Source: Stappia sp. MMSF_3263 (GTDB lineage: Bacteria; Pseudomonadota; Alphaproteobacteria; Rhizobiales; Stappiaceae). From it: 64,000 nucleotides of DNA. Below the pieces are notes generated by a model. The model was not told where the DNA came from. It made no database searches and worked only from the letters and a program-made list of their open reading frames with translations. The stretch spans positions 310,001 through 374,000 of the forward strand of contig NZ_JASHIK010000002.1 of NCBI RefSeq assembly GCF_030733745.1. Reading direction: 5' to 3'. Shown here piece after piece: positions 55,417 to 64,000 of this stretch. Each line of letters begins with the position of its first letter. Positions within the stretch are counted from its first letter, which is position 1. The position numbers and the translations under genes were made by a program.

Positions 55417-55728
55417 TTACACGCTCCCGGCCTTCTCGATCACCAGAACCCTGGCCGGGCCATCCGGGTGCGCGACATGTTCATCGCCGCTCTCCGCGTG
55501 AAAGACGTCCCCGACTGCCAGCCGCCAGATCTCCTCCCTGCCGTTCCTGCGCGTGTGCATGTCGACCGCGCCATCAAGGACGACGAAAACCTCCGGACCG
55601 TCGTTGACGTGCCATTTGTAGGGTGCGTCGGTCCAGTGCAGCCGCACCGTCGCGCCCTCGATGTTCTCGATGTCGAGCGCGTCCCAGGCCCTGGTGCCGG
55701 TGAACTCTTTCGCGGTGACTTTTCTCAT
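55417..55728 (-). CDS. Cupin-domain protein
   Basis: A 103-residue single cupin: KWHVNDGPEVFVVLDGAVDMH (motif 1 with His and Glu metal ligands) and HAESGDEHVAHPDGPARVLVIEK (motif 2). Near-perfect RBS CAGGAGGTCAG. It is divergent from an Lrp-type gene with a 78-base gap holding an AAGCTG-N9-CAGCTT inverted repeat. Function unknown; may bind a small acid or oxidise a cluster metabolite. Confidence 0.85.
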   Translation of the reverse strand: MRKVTAKEFTGTRAWDALDIENIEGATVRLHWTDAPYKWHVNDGPEVFVVLDGAVDMHTRRNGREEIWRLAVGDVFHAESGDEHVAHPDGPARVLVIEKAGSV

Positions 55729-55766
55729 GCTGACCTCCTGTCTTGGGAGCTTGTATATTCCTCCGG

Positions 55767-55787
55767 AAGCTGCCATCCGGACAGCTT
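55767..55787. promoter_or_regulatory. Inverted repeat between cupin and Lrp genes
   Basis: AAGCTG (55767-55772) and CAGCTT (55782-55787), 9-bp spacer; the surrounding bases also repeat TCCGGA. Likely binding site of the Lrp-type regulator next to it (inference). Confidence 0.5.
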
Positions 55788-55806
55788 GCGAACCGACGTA
55801 AGCGGC

Positions 55807-56244
55807 ATGCGTATCGAGGGAAAATTGGCTCTGGACAGGACAGACAAGCGAATACTGGCCGCGCTTGAGCGAAACGCCCGCATCAGCTTCGCCGCACTGG
55901 GGCGCCAGATCAACCTGTCCCGCACCGCCGTCCAGGACCGCGTGACCCGGCTGGAGGCAGACGGGGTCATCCGGGGCTACAGGGCCGAGATCGCGGAGGA
56001 AGCCGGTGGCCTGATGCACGCCCTCCTGTTCGTGGAGATCGCCGTGCGCCCCTGCGAGCCGGCGCTGCAATGGCTGGCATCGCTCGAAGGCGTTTGCGAG
56101 GTGTTCTCGCTTTCCGGAGAGGTCGATGCCGTTGCCAGATGCGTCATCGCCTCGCCCGAGGCCCTCGCCGGCCTCAATGACCGGGTCAGGTCCAGCGACA
56201 TGATCTCGTCCTCGAGATCGCACATCATCCTCAACCATCGATAG
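55807..56244 (+). CDS. Short Lrp/AsnC-family regulator
   Basis: A 145-residue feast/famine regulator. HTH: LDRTDKRILAALERNARISFAALGRQINLSRTAVQDRVTRLEADGVI; a RAM domain from about 68. Ligand site not obvious. Its start ATG 55807 fits the family. Location between the cupin and the biosynthetic operon makes it the best candidate cluster regulator. Confidence 0.88.
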   Translation: MRIEGKLALDRTDKRILAALERNARISFAALGRQINLSRTAVQDRVTRLEADGVIRGYRAEIAEEAGGLMHALLFVEIAVRPCEPALQWLASLEGVCEVFSLSGEVDAVARCVIASPEALAGLNDRVRSSDMISSSRSHIILNHR

Positions 56245-56466: not shown

Positions 56467-57774
56467 ATGCCCAATGCGCACTCCATTGCCGCAAGTCCTC
56501 ATCACCCTGGGGAATCTTCCGTAAGGTCGTATTCACGAACATTCCCGGTCGTCTTCGACAGGGCCCGCGGCCCCTATCTCGAATGCATCTCCGGCGAGAC
56601 CTATATCGACTTCTTCTGCGGCGCGGGGTCGCTGAATTACGGTCACAACGCCACCGAACTGAAAGAGGCCGTCGCCAGGTATCTCGCCGAGGACCGCATC
56701 CTGCACGGCATGGACATGATGACGGCGGCCAAGTTCGAATTTCTCGAGGTGTTCGCCTCGCAGATCCTCGCCCCGCGCAACATGGACTACCGCCTGCAGT
56801 TTTGCGGACCGACCGGAACCAATGCGGTCGAGGCCGCGCTGAAGCTTGCACGCAAGGTCAAGAAGCGCCGGCACGTCATCGCCTTCTCCAACGCCTTTCA
56901 TGGCGTCAGCATGGGCTCGCTCGCCGTGACCGCCAGCGCCAAGAAGCGCTCCGGCTCGCATCTGCCTCTGCGCGACACCTATTTCTTTCCCTATGAGGGG
57001 TTCGCCGGCGGGATCGACACGCTCGACCTTTTGGAAAGCTGCATCGGCCGGGCCGGCAGCGGCTACGAGCTTCCAGCGGCACTGATCCTGGAAACCGTGC
57101 AGGGCGAAGGCGGCGTCAATATCGGCTCGCAGGCGTTCCTGCAAGGCATCGCGGCGTTCTGCCGCCGGCACGACATCCTGCTGATCGTCGACGACATCCA
57201 GATGGGTTGCGGCCGCACGGGGCCGTTCTTCAGCTTCGAGCGTTTCGGGATCGAGCCCGACATCATCTGCCTGTCGAAATCCCTGTCCGGCTTCGGCCTG
57301 CCCTTCTCCCTCGTCCTGATGAAGCCCGAGCTCGATATCTGGCAGCCGGGCGAGCACGCGGGAACCTTTCGCGGCAACAATCTCGCCTTCGTCGCGGCGA
57401 CCCAGGCGATCCGCACCTTCTGGAGCGACGGCCGGGCCAGCCGAAGCGCGGCCGCGATCGAAACCTCGATGCGCAACTGGGGCGCGCGGTTGCGGCAGGC
57501 CCATGGCGAGATCCGCGACATTCGCGGGCGCGGCGCGATCTGGGGCGTGGAACTCGACACGCCGGGACGGGCCTCGGCCATCACCCGCCTGTGTTTCGAG
57601 CACAACCTTCTGATCGACACATGCGGCCCGTCCGGATCGGTCATCAAGGTGATGCCCCCGGTCGTCATCGAGGAAGAGATTTTCAATCACGGCATGCAGA
57701 TCCTCGCCGACTGCACCGAAACGGTGCTGCACGCCGGAAAAACGGAGGGGCCGGCATGCATATCGGCATCGTGA
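56467..57774 (+). CDS. EctB-like class III aminotransferase
   Basis: A 435-residue PLP aminotransferase, closest in pattern to diaminobutyrate-2-oxoglutarate transaminase (EctB): DFFCGAGSLNYGHN-like N-terminus, RLQFCGPTGTNAVEAALKLARK, and the PLP Lys K271 in CLSKSLSGFGLP. ATG 56467 is chosen with AGGTGAG before; an earlier TTG is discarded. EctB makes 2,4-diaminobutyrate from aspartate semialdehyde; whether this enzyme does is not shown. First gene of the operon; the next gene begins 19 bases inside its end. No ectA or ectC nearby. Confidence 0.88.
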   Translation: MPNAHSIAASPHHPGESSVRSYSRTFPVVFDRARGPYLECISGETYIDFFCGAGSLNYGHNATELKEAVARYLAEDRILHGMDMMTAAKFEFLEVFASQILAPRNMDYRLQFCGPTGTNAVEAALKLARKVKKRRHVIAFSNAFHGVSMGSLAVTASAKKRSGSHLPLRDTYFFPYEGFAGGIDTLDLLESCIGRAGSGYELPAALILETVQGEGGVNIGSQAFLQGIAAFCRRHDILLIVDDIQMGCGRTGPFFSFERFGIEPDIICLSKSLSGFGLPFSLVLMKPELDIWQPGEHAGTFRGNNLAFVAATQAIRTFWSDGRASRSAAAIETSMRNWGARLRQAHGEIRDIRGRGAIWGVELDTPGRASAITRLCFEHNLLIDTCGPSGSVIKVMPPVVIEEEIFNHGMQILADCTETVLHAGKTEGPACISAS

Positions 57775-58799
57775 TGGAATGCGACCTGCGTCCCGGACGG
57801 GGCGAGGCCGCCGCCTTCACCGAGGCGTTCGAGATCACCGAGCATGCCGACCGCTGCGGCATCGACTCGCTGTGGATGGTGGAGCGGCACTTCGCCGGCG
57901 AGGATGCGGCAAAGGGCACGATGGGCGCCGGCATCCCGTCCGTGTCGTCGACGCCGATGGTGATCGCCAGCGCGCTGGCCGCCCGCACAAGCCGCATCCG
58001 CATCGGCATCGGCGTCAGCATCCTGCCCCTGCACAATCCGGTCGGCATCGCCGAGGACGCCGCCGCGCTCGATCACATTTGCGGCGGACGGCTCGAGTTC
58101 GGCGTCGGCCGCAGCATGGACGAGAAGGCCTATGGCGGCTTCGGCGTCGACTTCGCCGAAAGCACGGCGCGCCAGGAAGAGGCGCTGGAGATCATCAAGG
58201 GGCTGTGGACCAACGAGACATACGGCCACCAGGGCAAGCACTACAGTTTCGAACCCGTCAATCTCGTGCCGCGCCCGCTGCAACAACCGCACCCGCCGAT
58301 CTGGTTCGCCATCAACCGCAAGGAGGCGTTCCATCATCTGGGGCGGATGGGCTACCCGATCCTTATCGGCCTGCGCGGCATGACCGTTCCCCAACTGAAG
58401 GACTGCGTCGACCTCTACCGCGCGTCGTGGAAAGCGGCCGGCCACGAGGGCGCCGCGCGGGTGCTGCTGCGCGCACCCATCCATGTGGGCCGTGACACAC
58501 GCTCCGGCCAGGAAGAGCCGCGCGCAAGCACCATGGCCGCCATCGAGCGGCAGTCGCGCAAGTACAAGGTCGAGATGCCCTCCTATGCGGAGCTTCTCAA
58601 GGACAAGCTGATCTATGGCGGGCCGCGCGATGTCGCCCGCCGGCTGTCGGAAATCGTCGACTATCTCGACGTCGAGGGGGTCATCGCCGAGTGCAATCTC
58701 GGCGGCCGGCTGCCCCAGGCGACCATCGAGCAATCCCTCACCTATCTGGGCACCGAGGTGCGTGACCTGATGAACAAGGAAAGGCTGGCTTATGCCTGA
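57756..58799 (+). CDS. Luciferase-like flavin-dependent monooxygenase
   Basis: A 347-residue LLM-class oxidoreductase: MHIGIVMECDLRPGRGEAAAF start, then DSLWMVERHFAGE, RIRIGIGVSILPLHNPVGIAEDAAALDH and GRLEFGVGRSM. Needs reduced FMN and O2, typically oxidising amines, aldehydes or aromatic rings. No flavin reductase gene is nearby. Strong RBS GGAGGGG. Overlaps both the aminotransferase (19 bases) and the radical SAM gene (8 bases). Confidence 0.9.
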   Translation: MHIGIVMECDLRPGRGEAAAFTEAFEITEHADRCGIDSLWMVERHFAGEDAAKGTMGAGIPSVSSTPMVIASALAARTSRIRIGIGVSILPLHNPVGIAEDAAALDHICGGRLEFGVGRSMDEKAYGGFGVDFAESTARQEEALEIIKGLWTNETYGHQGKHYSFEPVNLVPRPLQQPHPPIWFAINRKEAFHHLGRMGYPILIGLRGMTVPQLKDCVDLYRASWKAAGHEGAARVLLRAPIHVGRDTRSGQEEPRASTMAAIERQSRKYKVEMPSYAELLKDKLIYGGPRDVARRLSEIVDYLDVEGVIAECNLGGRLPQATIEQSLTYLGTEVRDLMNKERLAYA

Positions 58800-60465
58800 C
58801 ACATTCCAGCGACTGTACGAAGTCATCGACACGCCCCGCTTCGCGCAAGGCGGCGTGCCGCGCATCACCACCCGCAAGAGCGCCGAGGATTTCGCTCCCC
58901 GTGACGAGGGCCTCGACGTCCTGCTGATCAACACGCCGGTGCGCGAGTGGTCCTATCCCAACGTGCTGCCGATCGGTCAAGGCTATGTCGCGGCAGGCGC
59001 CATCATGGACGGGCACCGCCTCACCCGGCTCGATCTCAACGCCGACCGGCGCGTGCCGATCAGCACGCTCGATCCCGGTTACGACGCCTGGCTCTTCGCA
59101 CGCCTGGACGAGGCCCTGGCCGGCGAGCCGGACGTCATCGGCATCGGCGGGATCATCACCCAGTATGCTCAGATCAAGAAGATCTGCGCCTATTGCAAGG
59201 ACAAGCTGCCCGACGTGCCGATCGTCCTTGGTGGCGGCGTCGCCTCGGCCATGCCCGACTTCATGCTGAAGCACCTGCCGGTGGACTACGTCTCCCAGCA
59301 CGAGGGCGAGCTCACCTTTTCGGAGATCCTGCACCGCATCGAGATGGGCGCATCCATGCAGGGCGTCGCCGGGGTCACCTACTACGAGACCGACAGCCGC
59401 GGCGAGAAAACGGAGATCCGCCGCAACCCGCCGCGCCGGACAATGACCGCCGAACAGCTCGGTCACATGCCCTGGCCGCTCCGCCACCTGTGGGACATCG
59501 AGAACACCTACCGCGTCAATCCGGTCGGTCACCTCAACCAGGGGCGCAAATGGAACCAGGGCGCGCCCGAGTCGGGCGGTAAATTCTCGGCCGAGATGAT
59601 CGCCTCGCGCGGCTGCCCCTACACCTGCGAATACTGCTTCTCCGACTATCTGGGCACGGCCTACCGCTCACGCCCGCCCGCCGACGTGGTGCGCGAGATG
59701 GAATATCTGCACTACGAATACGGGGTTGAGTACATCGAAGTCCTCGATGACCTGATGCTCACCTCCTACAAGTGGGCTCTCGAATTCTACGCGGAGCTCC
59801 ACAAGAGCGGGTTGCCCAAGCGCGGCGTCGAGTGGGGCGGCACTTGCCGCACCAACATCCTGGCAAACGACATCGTCCGCGCCGCACGCGAGGGGCGCGG
59901 CAACATGCTCGAACTCGGCCACGACGCAGGGCTGCGCCGGGTCGCCTATGGCGTGGAAACGGGCAGCCCGACAATCCTCAAGGTGATCGACAAGTCCGGA
60001 CAGACGCCGGCGACGATCAAGACCGCGGTGCAGGAGACCGTCCGGGTGCTCGGCTATGCCTCCTGTTCCTTCATGTTCGGTTCGCCCGGAGAGACGGCGG
60101 AGACCATTCGCGAAACCGTCGACCTGTGCATCGATATGGACTACCGGCCGGAAGTGTTCTTCTTCACCACCGCCTATCCCGGCACGGTGTTCTGGCAGCT
60201 CGCCCTCGACAAGGGACTGATCCGCAAGTCGGTCGACGGCATCGTCGGCCCTGCCGACGACAGTATCATCGAGCGCTACCTGATGGGGCTTGGCGAACAG
60301 GGCGATGCGGTGCGCACCAATTTCAGCGACATGCCCGACGATGTGTTGCTGGAGCTTACCAACCAGGCGGCCCAGGACCTCAACTCCCACAATTCCCACA
60401 GGCATCCCTACCAGGACGGCGCGCCGAACAGCATCGTTCGGGACGCCACCCACGCAACGATCTGA
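58792..60465 (+). CDS. Cobalamin-binding class B radical SAM enzyme
   Basis: A 557-residue protein. The N-terminal B12-binding-like domain (about 40-180) lacks a clear DxHxxG motif but has the GQGYVAAGAIMDGHR and GIGGIITQY pattern. The radical SAM cluster is C275, C279, C282 in SRGCPYTCEYC. The C-terminal domain is long. Members of this class methylate carbon or phosphorus or do ring closures. ATG 58792 overlaps the previous stop. The most unusual enzyme of the operon. Confidence 0.9.
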   Translation: MPDTFQRLYEVIDTPRFAQGGVPRITTRKSAEDFAPRDEGLDVLLINTPVREWSYPNVLPIGQGYVAAGAIMDGHRLTRLDLNADRRVPISTLDPGYDAWLFARLDEALAGEPDVIGIGGIITQYAQIKKICAYCKDKLPDVPIVLGGGVASAMPDFMLKHLPVDYVSQHEGELTFSEILHRIEMGASMQGVAGVTYYETDSRGEKTEIRRNPPRRTMTAEQLGHMPWPLRHLWDIENTYRVNPVGHLNQGRKWNQGAPESGGKFSAEMIASRGCPYTCEYCFSDYLGTAYRSRPPADVVREMEYLHYEYGVEYIEVLDDLMLTSYKWALEFYAELHKSGLPKRGVEWGGTCRTNILANDIVRAAREGRGNMLELGHDAGLRRVAYGVETGSPTILKVIDKSGQTPATIKTAVQETVRVLGYASCSFMFGSPGETAETIRETVDLCIDMDYRPEVFFFTTAYPGTVFWQLALDKGLIRKSVDGIVGPADDSIIERYLMGLGEQGDAVRTNFSDMPDDVLLELTNQAAQDLNSHNSHRHPYQDGAPNSIVRDATHATI

Positions 60466-60491
60466 TCGCGGGCAGCAGGGAGGAAACGGTC

Positions 60492-61466
60492 ATGCTCAAG
60501 ACAAGCTTCGACCGGCAGAAACACTGGGAAACATCGCCGCGGGTCACCTCGCTGGTGGACGCGTTCGAGGCGATCGCCGCGGGGCGTTCGGGCTATCCGT
60601 CGAAACGCGAGGTGACCGCCGATCTGTCGCTGTTCGACGGACGGGAGGACATTGTCGCCTTCCACGAGCGCTACATGGGCTATAGCGGCACGTTCAACGC
60701 CCATTTCCTGGCCAGCATCCCTTACGTGCTTGAGGAGGAATGCCGTCTGGGCAACGCAATGACCGCCTATCTGACGGGCAAGAGCCGCAACCTTCGACGG
60801 ACGGCTCACCTCCAGACCGTCGGCAACGCGGAGGCCGTCATCGCGCGAACCGTCGTCGCGGCAAGCGGGGGGCACATCGCGTCGCTGTCGAACAGTCCGA
60901 CGGACGCCAACCGCCGCGAGTTCGAGCGCAACCGTCCGCCCGACTGCCATTTTCACCTCGGCCCCTATTTCGAGCTCGACCGGCACCGCATCCGCAACAC
61001 GCCGGAGCTTGCCCGCTTTTCCGAGGGCTTCGACATCATCTACGAGGACACGGCCTTCCAGATGTACGGCCCCGACCGTCACGAGCAGGTGCCCTTCGTG
61101 CTGCAGAACCTGCGACGGGACGGCATCTTCGTCTGCCTGGAAAAGTGCTCCCATGCCAGCCGCGAGGAATATCTGCGGCGGGAGCTGGTCAAGGACCGCG
61201 ATTTCAAGTCGAGATATTTCGATGCCGGCCAGCTTGAGGAGAAGGAGTTCATCCTTGGCGAAATGGTCAAGGGTCAGGTTCCGCTCGAGCATGTCGTCGA
61301 CGCGATCCGGATCGAGCTGCGCTATGTGGAATTGATCTGGAACTCCGGCAACTTCTACATGCTTGCAGCCTCGGACGACTGGGCCGAACTGCAGGCCTTC
61401 AAGGCATTGCTCGGACCGGTCTGCATTCCTGACGCATACGTGTTCGACTTCCCGCGCTCGCTTTAA
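60492..61466 (+). CDS. Methyltransferase-like protein of unknown family
   Basis: A 324-residue soluble protein with no family I recognise. Residues about 95-230 show a Rossmann-type alternation consistent with a class I methyltransferase: [25 protein letters not shown] (motif I-like, weak), [14 protein letters not shown] (motif II-like) and [13 protein letters not shown] (motif III-like). A canonical GxGxG is absent. RBS AGGGAGGAAA. It follows the radical SAM gene by 26 bases and is therefore part of the operon. Confidence 0.7.
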
Positions 61467-61618
61467 AGTGGTATCGACATTGGAAGGCTTGGATGCGCGA
61501 CCTCTCGCGCAGCCAGGCGTTCAGCCGTTTTCACCCTTGCCGGCCTGCAACCTTGCAGCGCAAACCACTTGATCCACCCGACGAAACAGTCCCATCGTTT
61601 TCCGGAAAGACACTGCAC

Positions 61619-62722
61619 ATGAAGACCATTCTCTTCCTCGCCGGCGACGGCATCGGACCCGAGATCACCCGCGAGACACGCAAGGTCGCACAGGCGCTCA
61701 AGGATGGCCTGTCGCTCGACCTTGCCTTCGACGAGGCCCTGATCGGCGGAGCGGCGCATGATGCGACGGGCAATGCCTTTCCCGACGAGACCCGCGCCAG
61801 GGCGGATGCGGCGAGCGCCGTGTTCCTGGGCGCCGTAGGCGGGCCCAAATGGGATCACCTGACCGGCGCCGCCTCGCTCGAGCGTGTCGCCCTGCTCGGC
61901 CTGCGCAAGCAGCTCGGCGCCTTCGCCAACCTGCGGCCGGTCAAGGTCTTCCCCCAGCTGATCGAGGCCTCGACGCTGAAGCGCGAGATCGTCGAGGGTG
62001 TCGACATGATCATCGTTCGCGAGTTGATCGGCGGGATCTATTTCGGCGAGCCGAGGGGCCTGAGGACCACCGGCGACGGACACCAGGAGGGCTACAACAC
62101 GCTCGTCTACAGCGTGCCGGAAATCGAGCGCGTCGTACGTGCCGCCTGCACCATCGCACGGACCCGCGACAAGCGCGTCACCTCCGTCGACAAGGCGAAT
62201 GTGCTTGAGGCGTTGCGGCTCTGGCGGGAAGTTGCCACCCGGGTGGTGCGCGACGAGTTTCCCGACATCACGCTCGACCACCTGATCGTCGACAACGCCG
62301 CCATGCAGCTGATCCGCTCGCCGAAACAGTTCGATGTCATGGTGACGACGAACATGTTCGGCGACATCCTGTCCGACGCGGCCTCCATGCTGACGGGGTC
62401 GCTCGGCATGCTCCCCTCCGCCGCGCTCAACGAGACGGGCAAGGGCATGTACGAGCCGATCCACGGCTCCGCTCCGGACATTGCCGGCCGGAACCTTGCC
62501 AATCCGCTTGCCTCGATCCTGTCCCTGGCGATGATGATGGAGCACAGTCTCGGCGAGCCGCAGGCAGCGCGGCGGATCGAGGCGGCCGTGCATGGCGTGC
62601 TCGACGCGGGATTGCGCACCGCCGACATCATGTCTCCCGGCATGAAGCAGGTGACGACGGCCGAGATGGGCGACGCCGTGGTTGCCGCCCTGGCCGTCAG
62701 GGTTTCGCAAGCCGCATCCTGA
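61619..62722 (+). CDS. LeuB-like 3-isopropylmalate/beta-decarboxylating dehydrogenase
   Basis: A 367-residue NAD-dependent enzyme: [88 protein letters not shown] and [11 protein letters not shown]. This is the LeuB pattern. No leuC, leuD or leuA is beside it, and it stands 152 bases behind the preceding gene, which may carry its own promoter. Either it is the ordinary leucine enzyme or it serves chain extension in the cluster. Confidence 0.9.
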
Positions 62723-62739
62723 CAAGGGCGATCAGCGCG

Positions 62740-63387
62740 ATGGACATGACCGGCATGCTTCTCGTCCTGTTCAACATCGCGTTGATCAACATCGTCGCCT
62801 GGCTGACGCCCGGTCCCAACATGTTCGCCGTCATGAACGCATCGCTGACGGGTGGACGGCCGATCGGGCTTGCGACCGGATTTGGCGTTGCCGCCGCCAG
62901 TTTCCTCTGGGCGGCGCTTGCCGTGCTCGGCGTGCGGGTCGTCTTCGAGACGTATCCGCAAGGGTTCCAGCTGCTGCGCCTCGCCGGTGCGGGCTACATG
63001 CTCTGGCTCGGCATCAAGGCGCTGCGCGCCGCGTTTGCCGGAACGGCCGGCGGGGCCGGCGCGGCGAACCCGTTGGCCGCCGGTTCGCGGCTCGTCGCCT
63101 TCCGTTCCGGCTTCGCGATCTGCGCCGCCAATCCGAAGGCGACCCTGTTCTTTGCCTCGATCCTCACCGCGTTCGTCCCGCCGGATGCCTCCGGCCGGCT
63201 GCTGATCGCGATCCTGCTCCTGTGCGGAGCCCTTGGTGTCGCCTGTCACTCGATCACCGCCACCGTCTTCTCGACGCCCGTCCTGGTGCGCTGGTTCGAG
63301 CGGAACAGAAACCGGGCCTATGCCGTGTTCGGCGGCATCTTCTGCTTCTTCGCGCTGGCCATCATTCACGACCTGCTCAGCGGGTGA
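62740..63387 (+). CDS. LysE/RhtB-family exporter
   Basis: A 215-residue inner-membrane protein with six predicted helices. LTPGPNMFAVMNASLTGGRPIGLATGFGVAAAS is the family signature; ANPKATLFFASIL in the second half is typical. Exports amino acids or homoserine-like compounds. 17 bases after the LeuB-like gene; fits export of a cluster product. Confidence 0.88.
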   Translation: MDMTGMLLVLFNIALINIVAWLTPGPNMFAVMNASLTGGRPIGLATGFGVAAASFLWAALAVLGVRVVFETYPQGFQLLRLAGAGYMLWLGIKALRAAFAGTAGGAGAANPLAAGSRLVAFRSGFAICAANPKATLFFASILTAFVPPDASGRLLIAILLLCGALGVACHSITATVFSTPVLVRWFERNRNRAYAVFGGIFCFFALAIIHDLLSG

Positions 63388-63529
63388 CGCAAGTGCCCGG
63401 GCGGCATTGCGCGCAAACCGGACATCAGAAATAGATTCAACGAATTAGACGAATGACTTCAGCCCCCTTATCACTCAGGAGTACCGTAGGGGAAATTGGC
63501 GTTTTCATCGGATTTCGACCAGGGAGGCC

Positions 63530-64000
63530 ATGATGGGCAAAAGGTGGGATATCAACGATTTCGAGCAGCGTACCGGCGGCGGCGCCAACATGGTCGGCTT
63601 CGAACCGGGCACTCCGGACGATCAGGAGATCGCCGCATACCAGGCCTATGTCAGGGACGCGCTGGAGACGGCGGAGGGGGCGAACGGAAAAGCCCTGGTC
63701 ATGGGAATGACCGTGCGCGTTCGCCAGGCGATGCACGACCTTGGCCTTGCGGTCACCTGCATGGATATCAGCGAAGGCGCCGTCACCTATCTGCGCAACG
63801 CGCTGCCGGATGCCTTCCGGGCCCGCGAGACCGTCCTCAACGACGACTGGATGAACCTTCCCGCCGCCCTCCCCGGCCCCGTTTCGGCGATCGTCGGCGA
63901 CGGCGTCTTCTCGAACATTCTCAGCCTGGCGCAACAGAACGTGCTGCTCGGCCGACTGCGCGAGACGCTGGTTCCCGGCGGTGCGCTGGTCACCCGCAAC
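63530..64000 (+). CDS. Methyltransferase-like protein (partial)
   Basis: 157 residues are in the window; the gene runs off the right edge. AGGGAGG precedes two ATGs at 63530 and 63533; the second has the better spacing. The protein starts MMGKRWDINDFEQRTG. LVMGMTVRVRQAMHDLGLAVTCMDISE resembles motif I and the acidic end of strand 2, and AIVGDGVFSNIL resembles motif II of class I methyltransferases. The preceding 142 bases may hold a promoter. Confidence 0.7.
   Translation, partial: MMGKRWDINDFEQRTGGGANMVGFEPGTPDDQEIAAYQAYVRDALETAEGANGKALVMGMTVRVRQAMHDLGLAVTCMDISEGAVTYLRNALPDAFRARETVLNDDWMNLPAALPGPVSAIVGDGVFSNILSLAQQNVLLGRLRETLVPGGALVTRN

Follow-up and report, generated by a model that had tools for sequence, protein, structure and literature searches.

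A candidate pathway for making and exporting a small amino acid in Stappia sp. MMSF_3263

The window analysed here is a stretch of 64,000 nucleotides of Stappia sp. MMSF_3263 (assembly GCF_030733745.1, contig NZ_JASHIK010000002.1, positions 310,001 to 374,000 of the forward strand). From window position 56467, seven intact open reading frames (ORFs) with ATG starts, P1 to P7, follow one another on the plus strand. They encode an EctB-type transaminase, a luciferase-like monooxygenase (LLM), a B12-binding radical S-adenosylmethionine (SAM) enzyme, a protein of an undescribed family with a predicted SAM-type fold, an additional LeuB, a LysE-type exporter and a weakly methyltransferase-like protein. 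With roughly even confidence, these genes are read as a pathway of horizontal origin by which a small non-proteinogenic amino acid is made and exported; the product would perhaps be an antimetabolite. The structure of the product cannot be read from the sequence. The initial annotation of this DNA had proposed that a modified amino acid is synthesised and exported, and this proposal gains support: relatives of P4 stand directly before a LysE gene in four other genera and beside an ATP-grasp gene in one metagenome bin. Its family calls (EctB-like, LLM, B12-radical SAM, LeuB-like, LysE) agree with the Pfam and NCBIfam searches. Its remark that no named pathway has this gene set also stands after literature searches; no title describing the operon or the P4 family was found among the open-licence papers searched.

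The strongest hint about P4 is its company, which is an amino-acid-type exporter in enterobacteria, in streptococci and in the window, and an ATP-grasp gene in the one bin: P4 probably forms or modifies an amino acid destined for export or for a small peptide. As the core of the proposed pathway, P4 would either turn SAM into an amino-acid-like product or attach a SAM-derived group to an amino acid. The probable role of P1 is to provide 2,4-diaminobutyrate or a similar amine. P3 may perform a C-methylation or another radical step on the product, which P2 would oxygenate and P7 methylate. P6 would then export it under an Lrp-type regulator. For P5 two roles are considered: a LeuB insensitive to the product, which would protect the producer, or a pathway dehydrogenase put to a new use. 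The substrates, the order of the steps, the nature and toxicity of the product and the role of LeuB are what we infer here.

The P4 family and its neighbours

The undescribed family of P4 is common on rhizobial plasmids and occurs also in enterobacteria and streptococci. It was matched in 199 plasmid records, all below 60% identity, and at 140 confirmed places in genome contigs, the best 80 of which were kept (closest 50% identical). The surroundings of 86 P4 loci (80 genome and 6 plasmid loci, related strains included; 80 of the 86 rhizobial) were surveyed by tblastn within 6 kb. A protein of 400-470 aa was matched at 71 loci, AraC at 42, MFS at 41, LuxR at 30 and LysE at 4, and three loci (L061, L065, L101) matched no query. 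An AraC or LuxR match was present at 71 loci, and these, like the MFS-positive loci, are all rhizobial. The LysE-positive loci are those of E. coli, two Pectobacterium and Streptococcus equinus, with the LysE match beginning 14-53 bases past the aligned part of P4; Pfam confirms LysE at one locus each of E. coli, Pectobacterium and Streptococcus. The same pair is annotated on further plasmids of E. coli, Salmonella and Streptococcus, two Streptococcus loci in all. Of 5426 complete E. coli genomes, 24 gave a match to the E. coli pair, each time on a plasmid, and 19 of these hold at least 80% of it in one place. Plasmids of about 5.7 kb from E. coli and Salmonella (L170, L022, L218) carry P4 and LysE beside replication, mobilisation and one hypothetical gene.

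In the metagenome bin (L101), the first base of P4 is also the final base of the ATP-grasp gene, and a D-Ala-D-Ala-ligase-like gene faces P4. At locus L028, the ORF before P4 was read as ATP-grasp by eye, with no Pfam or NCBIfam model matching it, and this ORF was matched in 1 of the 86 loci. In a tree of 44 rows the P4 of the window (P0004) groups with L028 (100/98), apart from the LysE-linked groups of enterobacteria and streptococci; the deep branches of this tree are unsure, and the program warned of long branches, that of P0004 included. Four representatives of the 400-470 aa partner family (e.g., L017:5094-6503 and L018:10259-11494) had no Pfam or NCBIfam match, and two of these rhizobial proteins had no convincing relative in the window or in the longer stretch of the same contig, L009.

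P4 itself matched no Pfam, NCBIfam or PHROGs family and gave no convincing match in PADLOC. An AlphaFold2 model built with 40 relatives has a mean pLDDT of 94.4. It consists of a helical N-terminal part (1-101), alternating strands and helices and a closing hairpin, an order which, judged by eye, fits the class I SAM (Rossmann-type) fold. The earlier label "methyltransferase-like" holds for this predicted fold class only, since P4 may be a non-methylating SAM enzyme; that it uses SAM at all we infer. The family was aligned as 41 members with trimmed ends, and the 40 relatives were also checked across their full ORFs. G111, R119, S135-P136, D186-T187, F189-Q190-M191-Y192, W283, N287 and F288 are among the residues invariant in all 41. 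Class I SAM methyltransferases usually have an acidic residue after strand 2 that holds the ribose. Positions 131-134 are acidic in none of the 41 members (position 133 is S/C/N/T/A and position 134 is C/N/T), and because this acid is absent throughout, unusual SAM handling by P4 is suggested. It is this absence that speaks against P4 being an ordinary N- or O-methyltransferase of amino acids, whose methylated product would be changed further by P1-P3 and exported. This is a doubtful though credible explanation, in accord with the predicted fold and with weak matches to methyltransferase models, including that of sarcosine/dimethylglycine N-methyltransferase (3 of the 41 members, best E 0.0045).

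The P4 profile matched five structures, the best being CmoA, a carboxy-SAM synthase (E 0.0026 and 0.0044). The two share a weak C-terminal similarity (0.00029 for the best of the 41 members) and a predicted SAM-type fold; unlike CmoA, P4 has the helical N-terminal part and exporter neighbours. The E. coli P4 matches a PHROG named "tRNA methyltransferase" at 7.3e-11, and P0004 itself lacks that match. Both similarities would suit a CmoA-like modification of RNA by P4, with the adjacency of LysE coincidental. We hold this to be very improbable, as P4 immediately precedes LysE in both enterobacteria and streptococci, follows an ATP-grasp gene in the one bin and is part of a biosynthetic operon in the window. 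A protein of a Maribacter phage (L222), annotated as tRNA methyltransferase, has a stretch 24.5% identical to P4, lying within a very long ORF.

The nearest described logic is that of the azetidine-2-carboxylate synthase clusters (AzeJ; VioH with the B12-radical SAM enzyme VioG), in which, as here, a SAM-type enzyme stands beside a B12-radical SAM enzyme. The company given for such clusters includes B12-radical SAM and ATP-grasp proteins, drug/metabolite transporters and mobile elements (PMC11794875), and members of the P4 family elsewhere likewise have ATP-grasp or transporter neighbours and lie on mobile elements. The signatures which the same source gives for AzeJ/VioH include PFNxxGN, RxxYYxxC and FY near the N-terminus, with a GxxxG motif at strand 1 of AzeJ (PMC11794875). 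PFNxxGN and RxxYYxxC each occur in none of the 41 aligned P4 members and in none of the 40 relatives across full ORFs. FY near the N-terminus was not found in P0004 or in the other 10 rows of the A1 alignment (4 of them trimmed); it occurs near the start of one of the 40 longest ORFs of the relatives (L059), in a part of the ORF that probably precedes the true start. A strand-1 GxxxG is present in 39 of the 41 members, and P0004 itself has GNAEA there. P4 as an azetidine synthase, considered for its neighbours, was rejected on the missing signatures, and it is on these that membership of such clusters fails. A SAM-cyclising synthase of the azetidine-2-carboxylate type, giving a methylated azetidine amino acid with P3 as a VioG-like partner, is decidedly improbable: the similar neighbours and the GxxxG motif of most members favour it, but no azetidine-synthase structure is among the five matches of the P4 profile, and a family search of the operon proteins found neither a non-ribosomal peptide synthetase nor an aminoacyl-tRNA synthetase gene. 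Unlike those clusters, the operon lacks peptide-assembly genes and has the additional EctB, LLM and LeuB.

The additional LeuB and the other enzymes

P5 scores 464.8 bits against the TIGR00169 cut-off of 353.2, more than 100 bits above it, and on this equivalog model is a LeuB (3-isopropylmalate dehydrogenase) of the Iso_dh family. The genome has four Iso_dh members, two of them at LeuB level, namely P5 and a copy on contig C47. The C47 copy is 51% identical to P5, about the same as the copies of relatives: P5 is matched in 85 of 87 genomes of the taxonomic family (E up to 1e-60) at 49-52% identity, the exceptions being P5 itself and a second copy in G066 at 41%. In a 398-genome sample of the phylum, its best relatives are 63% identical and come from other classes. 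P5 is an extra LeuB copy and, by these comparisons, a foreign-looking one.

The RPE-x-GLL loop is present in all 59 LeuB proteins compared, which comprise 30 (29 relatives and the genome's own copy) and the 29 nearest relatives; one Iso_dh row that is not a LeuB (L026) was left out. P5 differs from them: its loop reads SLERVALL, longer by one residue, and at the site of their RELT or RELS it carries RELI. The loop is taken here to contact the substrate side chain. A role of LeuB Glu87 is likewise assumed, the literature check on it having returned unrelated passages only. The change in the P5 loop would fit either self-protection or a new substrate. LeuB as a step of the pathway, as first proposed, is uncertain: the operon copy could be a resistance copy, because the genome keeps its own LeuB. 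P5 would then be the first self-resistance LeuB known to us. An SDAAS stretch of P5, at first taken as likeness to other dehydrogenases, was dropped, since close LeuB relatives share it.

P1 belongs to Aminotran_3 and reaches EctB level (565.4 bits against the TIGR02407 cut-off of 552.2), being the sole protein of the genome above that cut-off. Neither EctA nor EctC is among the seven operon genes and the Lrp-type regulator, unlike in the ectoine pathway, and the search of the rest of the genome covered EctC. Ectoine synthesis was rejected, as neither stands beside P1. The only EctC-like match of the genome lies on a different contig (G000:C38:4572-5246) and consists of two tandem ectoine-synthase-like stretches, the second below the cut-off. 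P2 (Bac_luciferase) is under the cut-off of each of the 25 NCBIfam matches listed of 31. P3 combines B12-binding and Radical_SAM domains with the cluster motif CPYTCEYC (CxxxCxxC type). It falls under the cut-offs of all 18 NCBIfam models matched, far so for the best (BchE, ApyD and HpnJ, 89-91 bits). Its domain make-up is that of class B B12-dependent radical SAM methyltransferases, and P3 may act by methyl transfer. P6 is a LysE protein (PF01810, 92.8 bits against a cut-off of 25.6), as are the LysE/RhtB amino-acid exporters, but reaches the cut-off of none of the six NCBIfam exporter models that it matched. P7 gives only sub-cut-off matches to methyltransferase models (PF08242, 0.006) and matches two methyltransferase structures (E 0.0018 and 0.0088). 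A beta-lactone pathway was considered for the LeuB and the methyltransferase. Enzymes named for cystargolide and belactosin in PMC11427300 include one of isopropylmalate-synthase type, putative hydrolases and acyl-CoA-synthetase-like enzymes; those named there are missing here, and this candidate was rejected.

Probable foreign origin and the search for a second copy

The operon is seemingly a horizontally acquired insertion, to judge from its distribution and surroundings. The search of the taxonomic family covered P4 and LeuB among the operon genes. P4 was found in 1 of the 87 genomes, that of the window, and is absent from the other 86; in the order it was found in 7 of 297 sampled genomes, the six others at 38-41% identity. 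The slot without the operon rests on one relative, the congener G081 (L213). It has both of the genes that flank the operon, extensin-like and Dus, with about 5 kb of other genes between them, and no match to P1-P7 or to the regulator was found there (E up to 1e-8). By eye, the genes in this slot (L213:10880-16046) are a PhaC-like ORF and those of a FecBCD-like ABC transporter. Five other congener stretches gave no Dus gene, and none has P1-P7; two of these five (L216, L217) give a weak Lrp match of about 32%.

The whole seven-gene set was not found a second time in the genome samples, plasmids, viral contigs and phages searched, a result which neither supports nor refutes the whole pathway. 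P3 matched only itself in samples of 297 genomes (E up to 1e-20) and 289 genomes (1e-30), and in the 398-genome sample it matched 36 others (the samples overlap) at 1e-20 with at most 34% identity. The best 15 of 86 plasmid records are at most 27% identical to P3. Three plasmids with distant P3 relatives have no EctB, LLM or LysE gene in context; on two of them, a gene annotated as class I SAM methyltransferase lies close to the B12-type one. P3 was not found in viral contigs, and neither P3 nor P4 led to a second cluster copy there; P4 gave one match of 24.5% in phages, again with no second copy. In plasmids, P7 had no match, and relatives of P2 are 27-39% identical (20 listed of 50) and those of P1 49-53% (12 listed of 307). 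Two P1 relatives on rhizobial plasmids belong to different gene sets (L220:8998-18393 and L221:8992-13477, the latter beside nif genes). The EctB-type gene of L220 is accompanied by genes for an aspartate-semialdehyde dehydrogenase, an amino-acid kinase, an L-amino-acid ligase and an annotated lysine 2,3-aminomutase. Here one may perhaps see a diaminobutyrate peptide cluster. EctB-type genes thus occur outside ectoine operons as well.

Several results weigh against the proposed amino-acid pathway. At 92 other P4 loci (E up to 1e-4; some loci only about 4 kb), P1, P2, P3, P5 and P7 were never matched, P6 being matched in four and Lrp in one. P3 has no close relative in the genome samples, so that conservation says nothing about the pathway. 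LysE was matched at just 4 of the 86 surveyed loci, and most loci, which are rhizobial, are without it. LysE is moreover a common family, and its gene here lies two genes downstream of P4, with gaps. The match of the E. coli P4 to a phage tRNA-methyltransferase family and the weak CmoA similarity would allow an RNA role for P4.

If the pathway is as proposed, many orphan plasmid loci of rhizobia, enterobacteria and streptococci are linked by a single undescribed enzyme family, the operon shows a possible extension of the P4 module by B12-radical SAM and flavin chemistry, and the altered LeuB points to a possible target. Small amino-acid antimetabolites are difficult targets for genome mining because they have no large synthases; P4 would be a marker gene for them. 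A bolder version, which we regard as a long shot, is that P4 is the first of a new class of SAM-consuming amino-acid synthases and that P4 with its exporter is a mobile two-gene antimetabolite module, which occurs in hosts from E. coli to Streptococcus and has other partners in rhizobia. Here the module would have grown to a seven-gene pathway hitting or bypassing leucine synthesis, with P5 as its self-resistance LeuB, and the plasmid form could underlie the "historical" methionine-like amino-acid microcins of E. coli. Microcin 15m is described as a homoserine trans-succinylase inhibitor, with no gene named in the accounts consulted (PMC6795089, PMC12162799), and the link of the P4-LysE plasmids to microcins of the methionine type is a lead only.

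Layout of the operon

The seven consecutive plus-strand genes of the initial annotation, with their two overlaps and the first gap, were all found again (Table 1). P1 and P2 overlap by 19 bases (57756-57774) and P2 and P3 by 8 (58792-58799), and P4 follows P3 after 26 bases. The claim that they are one unit is firm for P1-P4; P5, P6 and P7 follow after gaps of 152, 17 and 142 bases. The LeuB-LysE pair is thus set off by 152 bases on one side and 142 on the other, which would suit a chance string, in which P1-P4 form one pathway and LeuB, LysE and P7 are unrelated neighbours. This is improbable: P1-P7 share one strand, none of them occurs in the sole relative with the slot fully visible, LysE recurs beside P4 elsewhere, and P5 is an extra LeuB unlike the family's own. 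Extending the sequence past position 64000, as had been proposed, completed P7, whose whole ORF is L009:10531-11388 on the same contig.

Table 1. Features of the operon and the genes before it (window positions)
Feature	Position	Strand	Basis
Cupin-like ORF, divergent from the regulator	55417..55728	-	read from sequence alone
AsnC/Lrp-type regulator, 145 aa	55807..56244	+	PF13404 4.9e-16, PF01037 8.9e-8 (searched as 55741-56244)
P1, EctB-type diaminobutyrate transaminase, 435 aa	56467..57774	+	TIGR02407
P2, luciferase-like (LLM) flavin monooxygenase, 347 aa	57756..58799	+	PF00296 1.3e-54
P3, B12-binding radical SAM enzyme, 557 aa	58792..60465	+	PF02310 and PF04055 over cut-off; CPYTCEYC
P4, SAM-type-fold enzyme (predicted), undescribed family often plasmid-borne, 324 aa	60492..61466	+	family alignments, AlphaFold2 model
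P5, second LeuB, altered substrate loop, 367 aa	61619..62722	+	TIGR00169 464.8 bits
P6, LysE-type exporter, 215 aa	62740..63387	+	PF01810 2.5e-26
P7, weakly methyltransferase-like, 285 aa in full	63530..64000 and 387 bases beyond	+	sub-cut-off methyltransferase matches

The AsnC/Lrp-type regulator gene lies upstream of P1 on the same strand, and the gene after P7 is convergent. The operon region has one promoter-like site (mean of shuffles 1.3) and four terminator-like sites (5.6 in shuffles); because they are no more frequent than in shuffled sequence, these sites neither join nor separate the genes. The GC content in 1-kb windows is about 0.61-0.67 across the operon against 0.62-0.71 around it, which is a weak difference at most.

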